DNA of 51,454 nt, from contig CALBVY010000021.1 in NCBI GenBank assembly GCA_937969495.1, positions 1 to 51,454 of the forward strand, given 5' to 3'. A program made the position numbers and the translations under genes. Positions 23,773 to 26,779 of the stretch are shown in pieces. The DNA comes from an uncultured Verrucomicrobiales bacterium. Lineage in GTDB: Bacteria; Verrucomicrobiota; Verrucomicrobiia; Verrucomicrobiales; Akkermansiaceae. Below the pieces are notes generated by a model, which saw nothing but the letters and a program-made list of their open reading frames with translations, was not told the DNA's origin and did not search any database. The first letter of the stretch is position 1, and each line of letters starts with the position of its first letter.

Positions 23773-25272
23773 ATGATAAAATTGTCATCGGCTATTAGCA
23801 TTACGCTTTGTATCCTATCCACCCTAACACCCTCTCTGGCAGAGCAGAAGGAACCTCTGGCTCCAGCCGCTAACGCAACAGCAGCCACCAATGGCATCTA
23901 TAGTTCTATCGTGCGTATCGAAGCTGCCACTCAGGTGCCCAACTACCGCGAACCTTGGAAGGCTGGTAACTTCAGCGGCGGCATCGGCACAGGATTTCTC
24001 ATTGGACCTAATAAATTCCTCACCAATGCCCACGTTGTCTCCAATGCACGCCGACTTTTAATCACGGTGCATGGATCACCACAGAAGCACCCTGCACGTA
24101 TCCTCCACATTGCACATGATTGTGATCTTGCGTTACTAGAGGTGGAAGATTTTACCCCATTTGAGGGGCTTGAGCATTTAGAGATTGGTCTCGTGCCCAA
24201 GCTTGAGAGTCAAGTCAGAGTGATTGGCTACCCAGTGGGTGGGAATCGTATCTCAGTAACTCGCGGTGTGGTATCCCGTATTGATTTTAGCACCTACAGT
24301 CATTCCCGTGCTGATCAACACCTCGTTGTGCAGATTGATGCGGCTATCAACCCCGGCAACTCTGGCGGCCCAGTCCTTCAGGACGGCCGTGTAGTAGGCG
24401 TTGCCTTCCAAGGTCTACGTTCTGCGGATAACACTGGCTACATGATCCCCCCACCAGTGGTAAAACGCTTCCTCAAAGACATCGAAGATGGCCGCTATGA
24501 TCAATATGTCGACCTAGGTATCTCCGAGTTCACTTTATTTAATCCCGCTATGCGGAAAAAGTTTGGCCTCGAGGCAAATGCCCCAGGTGTCCTTGTGGCA
24601 TCCGTCATGCCAGATGGCCCCTGTGATGGCGTACTCGAAGACAACGACATCCTAACGGAGCTCAATGGCAACGCCGTGGATGCCGCTGGCAACGTCCTCA
24701 TTGATGGTGAAAAAGTAAACATGAATGAAATCGTAGAGCGCAAGTTCGCCGGTGATGAAATCAAACTACGCTTTATCCGCAACGGCAAGACCATGGAAAA
24801 GACCGCTACATTAAAACCATTTCCACCAGCTAAAATGTATTCCGTTCAGTATGGTGTAGCACCCCGCTTTACCACCTTTGCTGGGCTTGTATTCCAGCCC
24901 CTTGATCGTAACCTCTACGCAGCCCATAGCTTTAAAAACACCCGCGTGCGCAGACTCTTCGTTCACTACATTGATGAAGCTATTTTTAAAGAGCGGAAGG
25001 ACATTGTGATACTCACGCGTATCCTCAGTGATCCCATCAATACACATATCAGTAATCACACAGGTAAAGCCATCGAGTCCATCAATGGAGAGAAAGTCAC
25101 AAGTCTCGATCAAGTCCACGCTCTACTAAACCCTGAGGAAACTCCTGAGTTCTTTGTAATCAAATGTGAGGGTCTCGCACGCCCCATCGTCATCCCCAGT
25201 AACAAAGCTAAGGAAGCCAGTGAACGAACCATGAGGAATTACGGCATCAGCACTCCTTACCGCCTCAAGTAA
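23773..25272 (+). CDS. HtrA/DegP-like serine protease with PDZ region
   Basis: 499 residues. A signal peptide covers residues 1-23 (ending SLAEQ). The trypsin-like domain has a full triad: His87 in FLTNAHVVS, Asp118 in DCDLALLEV, and Ser197 in NPGNSGGPVLQDG. A PDZ domain follows near residues 245-345 (LGISEFTLF... GVLVASVMPDGPCDGVLEDND), and a second, weaker C-terminal region repeats this pattern (KAIESINGEKVTSLDQVHAL). HtrA proteases degrade or refold damaged envelope proteins. The gene is 31 bases before a homologue without catalytic residues, so the two are probably made together. Confidence 0.88.
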   Translation: MIKLSSAISITLCILSTLTPSLAEQKEPLAPAANATAATNGIYSSIVRIEAATQVPNYREPWKAGNFSGGIGTGFLIGPNKFLTNAHVVSNARRLLITVHGSPQKHPARILHIAHDCDLALLEVEDFTPFEGLEHLEIGLVPKLESQVRVIGYPVGGNRISVTRGVVSRIDFSTYSHSRADQHLVVQIDAAINPGNSGGPVLQDGRVVGVAFQGLRSADNTGYMIPPPVVKRFLKDIEDGRYDQYVDLGISEFTLFNPAMRKKFGLEANAPGVLVASVMPDGPCDGVLEDNDILTELNGNAVDAAGNVLIDGEKVNMNEIVERKFAGDEIKLRFIRNGKTMEKTATLKPFPPAKMYSVQYGVAPRFTTFAGLVFQPLDRNLYAAHSFKNTRVRRLFVHYIDEAIFKERKDIVILTRILSDPINTHISNHTGKAIESINGEKVTSLDQVHALLNPEETPEFFVIKCEGLARPIVIPSNKAKEASERTMRNYGISTPYRLK

Positions 25273-25303
25273 AGTATCCACAGCACTTCCCTATTTACTC
25301 TCA

Positions 25304-26779
25304 TTGATCATGAAACCTTTCCTAACAATCATCACCACTCTCACTCTAGCCATCACTGCGCAAGTCATGGCTAATCCCAACATCAAAGACTCACTGGTGC
25401 GTGTAAACTCTACACAACAGCGCTGGAATACATCTCAACCATGGGATAAGTTAGCCCCCTCCTCACGTGGTGCTCTCGGCGTCCTACTGGAAAACAAACA
25501 CATTCTCACCACAGCGGAGATGGCCGCTAACAGCACCTATATCGAGCTGGAAAATGCTGATAGCACCCGCACGCTACCGGCCACAGTGGTAGCCATCGAC
25601 TACGAATCCAATCTCGCCCTTCTGGCTCCCGGTAATGGTAATGCAGAAAGTTTCTTCAGTGCACTTCAGCCTCTGGCTCTCGGGAAGCCAGCTAAGATAG
25701 GTGACCAAGTCGATGTCTGGCAGTTGGAAGACAACGGCATGCCACTTATTACCAAAGCCACTATCCAAGGGGCAGACATTGTCTCCAGTTTTACCCGTGG
25801 CCACTACTTTCTAACTTACGAAGCAAAGGGATCTATGCAAAGTGCCACAAGTAGCTTTGCGCTTCCTGTTATCCAAGATGGTAAATTGTTAGGTATGCTT
25901 TCTAGTTATAATTCTAAAGATCAAATTATTGACATCATAGCACCTGAAATCATCGCTGCCTTCCTCGCTGATGCTGCGGATGATGACTACCAGGGGTTCC
26001 CCTCATTGGGGATTGGTATCACCAACACTGTAGATCCTAATTTCCGTCTCTGGCTCAAGCTACCCGAAGATATGGGAGGCCTCTACATCACCAGTGTGCG
26101 TAAAAGAAGTGCTGCCGAGAAAGCAGGTATCCTCAAAGGCGATGTGCTGCTTGCCATCGAAGATAAAGTGATTGGTCGCCGTGGATATTACGACAATGAA
26201 AAATACGGACGTCTTTTCTGGAGTCACCTCATCCGAGGCGGCCACCAAGTGGGCGATGAAATTAAAATCACCTTACTTCGGGACGGGGAGAAAAAGGAAA
26301 TCACAGCAGAGCTCACACGCTCTGGTAAAAAACTGATTCCTAATCATATGCATGATCAAGCGCCAAACTACCTCGTCAAAGGTGGTTTTATCTTTCAAGA
26401 GCTATCCGCTACTTACCTCGAAGCGTTTGGTTCAGACTGGAGGAGCAAAGCCCCCCTGAATTTATTGGACGCATTTATCAATCCAGAGGATTATGAAGAA
26501 GGACGTAACAAACTCGTATTCCTCAGCGCCACTATCCCCACCCCCGCCACCACTGGCTATGAGAGAATCCGAAATTTCATCATCGCTAAGGTCAATGGAC
26601 AAGAAATCGCCGATATTGCCTCACTTATCAAAGCATTTGAAACACCTGACGCTGACGGCCTTCACACCATCGAATTTACCGATGGCCAGCCTAAGATCGT
26701 CTATCTTGATGCCAACACCTCAGACACCATTGATGCCAAGTTACTCCAGCGCGGTATCCCAGCCTTATCACGCCAGTAG
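25304..26779 (+). CDS. Catalytically inactive HtrA-like protein with PDZ region (pseudoprotease)
   Basis: 491 residues with a signal peptide (residues 1-23, ending QVMAN). It follows the domain order of the upstream protease. All three catalytic positions differ when the anchors are aligned: His becomes Glu72 (ILTTAEMAA), Asp becomes Asn103 (YESNLALLA) and Ser becomes Phe185 (ATSSFALPVIQDG). The surrounding anchors PVIQDGK and LALL confirm the register. The PDZ segment (GLYITSVRKRSAAEKAGILK, then GDVLLAIEDKVIG) is intact. A scaffold, substrate-presenting or inhibitory partner of the active enzyme is likely but unproven. The reading frame shows no decay, so selection has kept it. Confidence 0.82.
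   Translation: MIMKPFLTIITTLTLAITAQVMANPNIKDSLVRVNSTQQRWNTSQPWDKLAPSSRGALGVLLENKHILTTAEMAANSTYIELENADSTRTLPATVVAIDYESNLALLAPGNGNAESFFSALQPLALGKPAKIGDQVDVWQLEDNGMPLITKATIQGADIVSSFTRGHYFLTYEAKGSMQSATSSFALPVIQDGKLLGMLSSYNSKDQIIDIIAPEIIAAFLADAADDDYQGFPSLGIGITNTVDPNFRLWLKLPEDMGGLYITSVRKRSAAEKAGILKGDVLLAIEDKVIGRRGYYDNEKYGRLFWSHLIRGGHQVGDEIKITLLRDGEKKEITAELTRSGKKLIPNHMHDQAPNYLVKGGFIFQELSATYLEAFGSDWRSKAPLNLLDAFINPEDYEEGRNKLVFLSATIPTPATTGYERIRNFIIAKVNGQEIADIASLIKAFETPDADGLHTIEFTDGQPKIVYLDANTSDTIDAKLLQRGIPALSRQ

Follow-up and report, generated by a model that had tools for sequence, protein, structure and literature searches.

Why should a bacterium keep, directly behind a working envelope protease, a second copy of it in which the catalytic triad has been lost? 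This question is raised by two adjacent genes, here called A and B, in a window of 51,454 nucleotides (the whole stretch of DNA that was analysed) from a verrucomicrobial assembly of 2.47 Mb. The original prediction, made from the sequence of the window, had read them as a retained protease-pseudoprotease pair in the envelope, and this reading is now backed by conservation, operon structure and selection.

Architecture of the two genes and the triad sites of B

The features of the locus are as follows.

23773..25272, + strand: gene A, an active DEG2/DEG9-type HtrA (S1C) protease of 499 aa with an ATG start (from ORF, domains and alignment); trypsin domain at about 45-240, PDZ_2 at 266-343, PDZ_3 at 359-494; triad H87-D118-S197
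23773..23841, + strand: signal peptide of gene A, MIKLSSAISITLCILSTLTPSLA before EQ (...TPSLA/EQ), read by eye
25273..25303, + strand: gap between A and B in a two-gene operon, 31 bases to the TTG and 37 to the ATG start of B
25304..26779, + strand: gene B, the catalytically dead paralogue, of 491 aa from the TTG at 25304 or 489 aa from the ATG at 25310; degenerate trypsin domain at about 28-228, PDZ_2 at 233-337, PDZ_3 at 345-483; triad sites E72/N103/F185 (TTG numbering)
25310..25372, + strand: signal peptide of gene B from the ATG, MKPFLTIITTLTLAITAQVMA before NP (...AQVMA/NP), read by eye

Both open reading frames are clean at these coordinates, and a signal peptide can be read by eye in each protein, as had been predicted. 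The proposed spacing of 31 bases holds for the TTG start of B, but the in-frame ATG at 25310, two codons past the TTG, is the likelier start, and with it the gap is 37 bases. No terminator-like site was found in the gap at 25273-25303. The domains of A all score above the cut-offs (Trypsin_2 94.5 bits, PDZ_2 32.4, PDZ_3/PF17815 76), and the trypsin-like domain of B reaches 23.9 bits, which is under the Pfam cut-off of 27.6. A layout of trypsin-like domain, PDZ_2 and PDZ_3/PF17815 is common to the two proteins, which can be aligned over their full length with 25% identity. B had been described as keeping the layout and a PDZ segment; the layout stands, while the PDZ part consists of two PDZ-type domains, as in A. 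For both proteins, the closest solved structures are plant DEG2/DEG9 (PDB 4fln, 5il9), with E values of 1e-70 for A and 1e-32 for B.

In addition, a structure model of B has DEG9 (5il9) as its best PDB match in Foldseek (E 1.6e-31), followed by DEG2 and DegP. As the models of A and B were built on 12 sequences, their confidence is moderate: the pLDDT of B is 67, and TM is about 0.5 over the whole chain, with uncertain orientation of the domains. According to the model, the HtrA/Deg fold is kept in B.

The triad of A, predicted as His87-Asp118-Ser197, is confirmed. For B, a MAFFT alignment of 128 proteins places E72/N103/F185 opposite H87/D118/S197, and the same register, which is the one originally proposed, is obtained by profile-profile alignment with hhalign (52-row B profile against 46-row A profile: probability 100, E 3e-89, 468 columns). 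The B profile also aligns to the solved DEG9 structure (5il9) with an E value of 2e-95. The assignment of Phe185 to the Ser site depends on the placement of a two-residue gap. Another placement, allowed by plain phmmer against DEG9, would retain a catalytic Ser; it was rejected since the profile alignments put Phe185 there. In the clade of the window, a two-residue insertion directly before the Ser site of B gives a neighbouring Ser (S183/S184), but such a Ser exists in no more than 54% of B proteins, without a His or Asp partner. Moreover, the protease-like region contains no conserved His among the 85 B proteins (best column 29%), so that a substitute triad elsewhere in B is excluded as a family trait.

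To see the sites across the family, we have taken about 100 regions, called their ORFs again, and aligned 84 A proteins, 85 B proteins and 42 solo relatives. The H/D/S triad is intact in all the A proteins (84/84) and all the solo relatives (42/42), and in none of the B proteins (0/85). All three residues are gone in 79 of the latter, five keep one and a single protein keeps two. Active members conserve a Gly two residues past the catalytic Ser, and this too is present in 0/85. Instead, B has a signature of its own: 74/85 proteins have Asn where the Asp would be, 62/85 have F, Y or W in place of the Ser, and 68/85 have an acid or amide in place of the His, a position at which E, D, Q, S, A and N all occur. 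The signature is blurred in some lineages (L069-L072). Asp99 and Asn103 are conserved in 99% and 87% of B proteins, respectively; in the active A these positions are held by Ala and by the catalytic Asp. Pro61-Trp62 ahead of the barrel and Gly272, Asp292 and Arg336 in the PDZ part (A numbering) are invariant in 85/85 B proteins and in A. That is, the residues invariant in both families are structural, and the active-site loops are gone from B.

Since the solo members are intact, loss of the triad goes with the second position in the pair, and among the family members found here the dead state is confined to the gene in that position. A separate, well-supported clade of solo proteins (L198-L209, families f17, f11, f31 and f61), with intact triads, occurs in lineages of the same class without the pair; these may be A proteins minus B.

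Distribution, selection and history of the pair

The pair had been treated as a local curiosity, but it is phylum-wide and occurs in a spirochaete too. The suggested search for the same adjacent genes in Verrucomicrobiota genomes has given 80 linked loci in more than 40 family-level groups, together with Leptospira interrogans. In each of the 80 linked pairs the genes share a strand and A precedes B, mostly with gaps of -4 to +85 bases, the large apparent overlaps being an artefact of the mechanical choice of the most upstream start. Within the order of the window, 283 of 289 genomes have B, as do 225 of the 226 good ones (the search also picks up A, and the best matches listed are B). It is present at full length through the class and also in other lineages of the phylum; the second gene is thus neither absent nor degraded in relatives. 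A PF17815 search over 289 genomes across Verrucomicrobiota matched 112 of them, some lineages having two copies and others one.

Among the genomes examined, no B was found without A. The genes lie on different contigs in G161, G153 and G337, where both are kept, and in some genomes of genus g4 they are far apart yet both retained (L219 = G161:C11 and L063 = G161:C1; G104). Such separated genomes provide a natural test of how important the linkage is. Every other neighbouring family is present in at most 12 of the 80 loci, so the pair itself is the unit, and a larger conserved operon around it was rejected on the same count. Flagellar or other machine genes are not conserved beside the pair. 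In other lineages of the phylum (L181, L184, L186, L187, L193), a conserved set of same-strand genes, among them those for an ABC-2-like permease and a secreted protein, lies downstream of B, unlike in the class of the window.

We have also calculated dN/dS, the comparison proposed for the second gene. Synonymous sites are saturated at genus level with the window, and closer pairs were used for this reason. In the closest pair (L035/L037), which belongs to the window's own genus group and has unsaturated synonymous sites, the protease-domain dN/dS is 0.019 for B and 0.018 for A, which indicates purifying selection on the dead domain. Two other pairs give 0.066 and 0.107 for the dead domain against 0.017 and 0.021 for A, the synonymous rate being already high in the first of them. 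For whole B proteins, the values range from 0.065 to 0.156 in three pairs. In addition, the mean identity over 3160 comparisons is 31.5% for B and 42.6% for A, so B diverges faster. Overall, selection constrains B, in most cases less tightly than A. The distances of A and B correlate (r 0.92), which shared vertical descent alone would also give. In one member of the closest pair (L037:3390-4910), B is without nine residues of the PDZ_3 region that near relatives have, possibly by an assembly error.

Taken together, the alignments and substitution rates define B as an HtrA/Deg-fold pseudoprotease in which the fold is kept and the triad lost, with the loss conserved in orthologues and under purifying selection.

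In the tree, B forms one side of a single branch with an SH-aLRT support of 100, so that duplication and inactivation appear to be a single event that predates the class. Catalysis would have been lost once, in an ancestor common to most, at least, of the Verrucomicrobiota sampled, after what looks like a single ancient duplication, and B has since stayed beside A under strong purifying selection that extends to the dead domain. Outside this phylum our view is a plasmid collection, which leaves out Leptospira chromosome I. It contains the same tandem order in L. interrogans with 14 bases between the genes (L238:3271-6383 = NZ_CP043881.1 213135-216247), and the triad sites are H-D-S in the first gene and S-N-F in the second. 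The two proteins take matching places inside the A and B clades, beside the same relatives (support 81-83, with a long branch for the Leptospira B), which suggests that the pair was probably inherited or transferred jointly.

The Leptospira genes correspond to LIC20143-LIC20144 (PMC7709667), as His93 matches the first gene of L238 and an adenine phosphoribosyltransferase lies just upstream in both. A triad of His93, Asp124 and Ser203 has been reported for LIC20143, LIC20144 has been described as a PDZ domain only, and their co-expression has been suggested to be possibly regulatory (PMC7709667). This is the same pair as ours, with LIC20144 adjoining LIC20143 and falling in the B clade; neither its dead protease domain nor the link to Verrucomicrobiota was recognised in that study. 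A second Leptospira operon, LIC11112-LIC11111, has likewise been described as a serine protease and, overlapping it by 4 bases, a PDZ-only protein (PMC7709667) and may be another case of a protease with a dead protease.

The placement of B in the cell is variable. Among the 85 B proteins, 18 have a lipobox-like Cys motif (e.g., LSSC in L035 and LSAC in L067) ahead of the mature part, and many of these belong to the family of the window. In lineages with the motif, B may be a lipoprotein, judging from its N-terminus. Similar matches exist in 9 of 84 A proteins, several of them within over-long mechanical N-termini. Within Akkermansiaceae, lipobox-type N-termini of B were observed at L035:5848-7395 and in L034, L037, L032, L062, L067, L068, L069, L070 and L073. 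The B of the window has no lipoprotein signal and carries the ordinary signal peptide noted above. As close relatives, like the window, have an ordinary signal peptide, B seems to change between membrane-anchored and unanchored forms inside a single genus.

The role of the dead copy and the competing explanations

Since most of the sampled Verrucomicrobiota, and Leptospira as well, have retained a live and a dead copy next to each other, it is almost certain that B has a function of its own, most likely the control of the live A. We consider it probable that the operon encodes a DEG2/DEG9-type envelope quality-control protease together with a dedicated non-catalytic partner, either a regulator or an assembly subunit.

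Several known systems combine active and inactive HtrA units. Plant DEG2/DEG9 have the architecture of A and B (trypsin, PDZ, PDZ_3), and DEG9 is the best fold match of B. However, the plant proteins are intact and singly encoded, whereas here one tandem copy is dead and both are exported bacterial proteins. MamO activates MamE non-catalytically, although no physical contact between them was detectable, and its authors infer a selective advantage in combining an active with an inactive copy (PMC4794232). In MamO, W222, a bulky aromatic residue in the L1 loop, blocks the cleft (PMC4794232), as the aromatic residue at the Ser site of B may do. Like our pair, MamE-MamO joins an active HtrA with a degenerate trypsin-like partner, but MamO has a TauE-like transporter domain and a di-His metal site and lies in a magnetosome island. 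None of these applies to B, whose C-terminus is PDZ_2 plus PDZ_3 and in which no MamO-type di-His site was found among 85 proteins. Besides, MamO of alpha-Proteobacteria is related to MamE only distantly, while A and B are sister families that form a much more widely distributed pair. In AtDeg7, an inactive domain is involved in trimerisation (PMC3473262). DEG7 likewise keeps active and dead Deg units together, but in one fused chain, whereas A and B are two secreted proteins from adjacent ORFs separated by a stop codon and a gap. In Deg proteases, protease-domain trimers join into larger assemblies (PMC4877387). Precedents thus exist in MamE-MamO, DEG7 and PflC (see below), and we infer that A and B may associate physically.

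In the most parsimonious interpretation, B would join A in the periplasm as a non-catalytic subunit that influences its assembly or activity, and the contacts would be those that build Deg oligomers, namely the trypsin-domain trimer and PDZ_3. The two PDZ domains of B would bind and present substrates, or else hold A in its resting state or release A from it. With its aromatic side chain, the former Ser site would block the catalytic pocket; where B is a lipoprotein, B would additionally tether the protease to a membrane. Whether B is supposed to activate or to restrain A, the sequence would fit either direction.

The main rival to this non-catalytic subunit is a standalone periplasmic chaperone or structural scaffold, built from PDZ domains plus an inactive trypsin fold, which shares stress, compartment and expression with A but does not bind it. 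We regard it as rather unlikely, but worth serious attention. HtrA pseudoproteases can turn into pure scaffolds: PflC of Campylobacter jejuni, derived from HtrA, has no triad, carries an Asp to Asn change and is a structural part of the flagellar motor (PMC12222027). The variable N-termini of B, lipoprotein-like in some lineages and apparently soluble in others, suggest a placement of its own, and A and B can become unlinked. Nevertheless, over two phyla B has been kept beside an active sister of the same architecture, and never without it in the genomes examined, which exceeds what co-regulation needs. Unlike PflC, which is a flagellar disk component, the pair also lacks conserved flagellar or other machine genes as neighbours.

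An improbable alternative is that the old cleft of B has been converted to another binding or catalytic use, such as a metal or small-ligand site formed by Asp99, Asn103 and the Glu or Asp at the His site. The conservation of the first two residues would agree with it, and the protease domain of MamO has indeed become a metal binder (PMC4794232), but B conserves no pair of His or Cys residues that could hold a metal, and its His-site residue is variable. Far less probable still is a B protein that remains a protease with a relocated or non-classical centre: the Ser one or two residues off the old site in the window's clade would be its candidate, against which stand the poor conservation of this Ser, the lack of a conserved His and the missing Gly. 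Finally, a decaying duplicate invisible to selection, which the loss of all three catalytic residues and the faster evolution might suggest, can practically be dismissed, as the ORFs are open throughout a very old clade, the dead domain is under purifying selection and B has its own conserved signature.

Meaning of the pair for envelope proteolysis

Bacterial HtrA/Deg proteases have been studied as homo-oligomers, and we know of no general bacterial hetero-oligomeric HtrA that has been described. The pairing of active and inactive HtrA copies is itself already known in magnetosome islands and, in fused form, in plants, and the Leptospira operon had been noted before, with its second gene read as PDZ only. 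New, as far as the literature searched shows, is a tandem of the DEG2/9 type that is retained in Leptospira and most of a phylum, that carries a conserved signature at the dead site, and whose solo relatives are intact. We have found no earlier description of such a tandem in the open-licence literature, which is weak evidence of absence.

In a tentative extension, to which we give somewhat less than even credence, much of Verrucomicrobiota and Leptospira would possess an obligate two-subunit envelope Deg machine, half of whose subunits are dead by design. In it, B would determine how A assembles, which substrates it takes or where at the membrane it is placed, a part comparable to that of inactive ClpR or alpha-proteasome subunits for their proteases.

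For Leptospira, the annotation is reinterpreted: the second gene, taken for a PDZ-only protein, is a dead protease paralogue. The pair also offers a clean natural system for the effect of a pseudoprotease on its sister, where the unpaired solo relatives serve as built-in controls. The adjacency of a live and a dead copy over two phyla would imply that envelope quality control in these bacteria needs a dedicated non-catalytic HtrA subunit.
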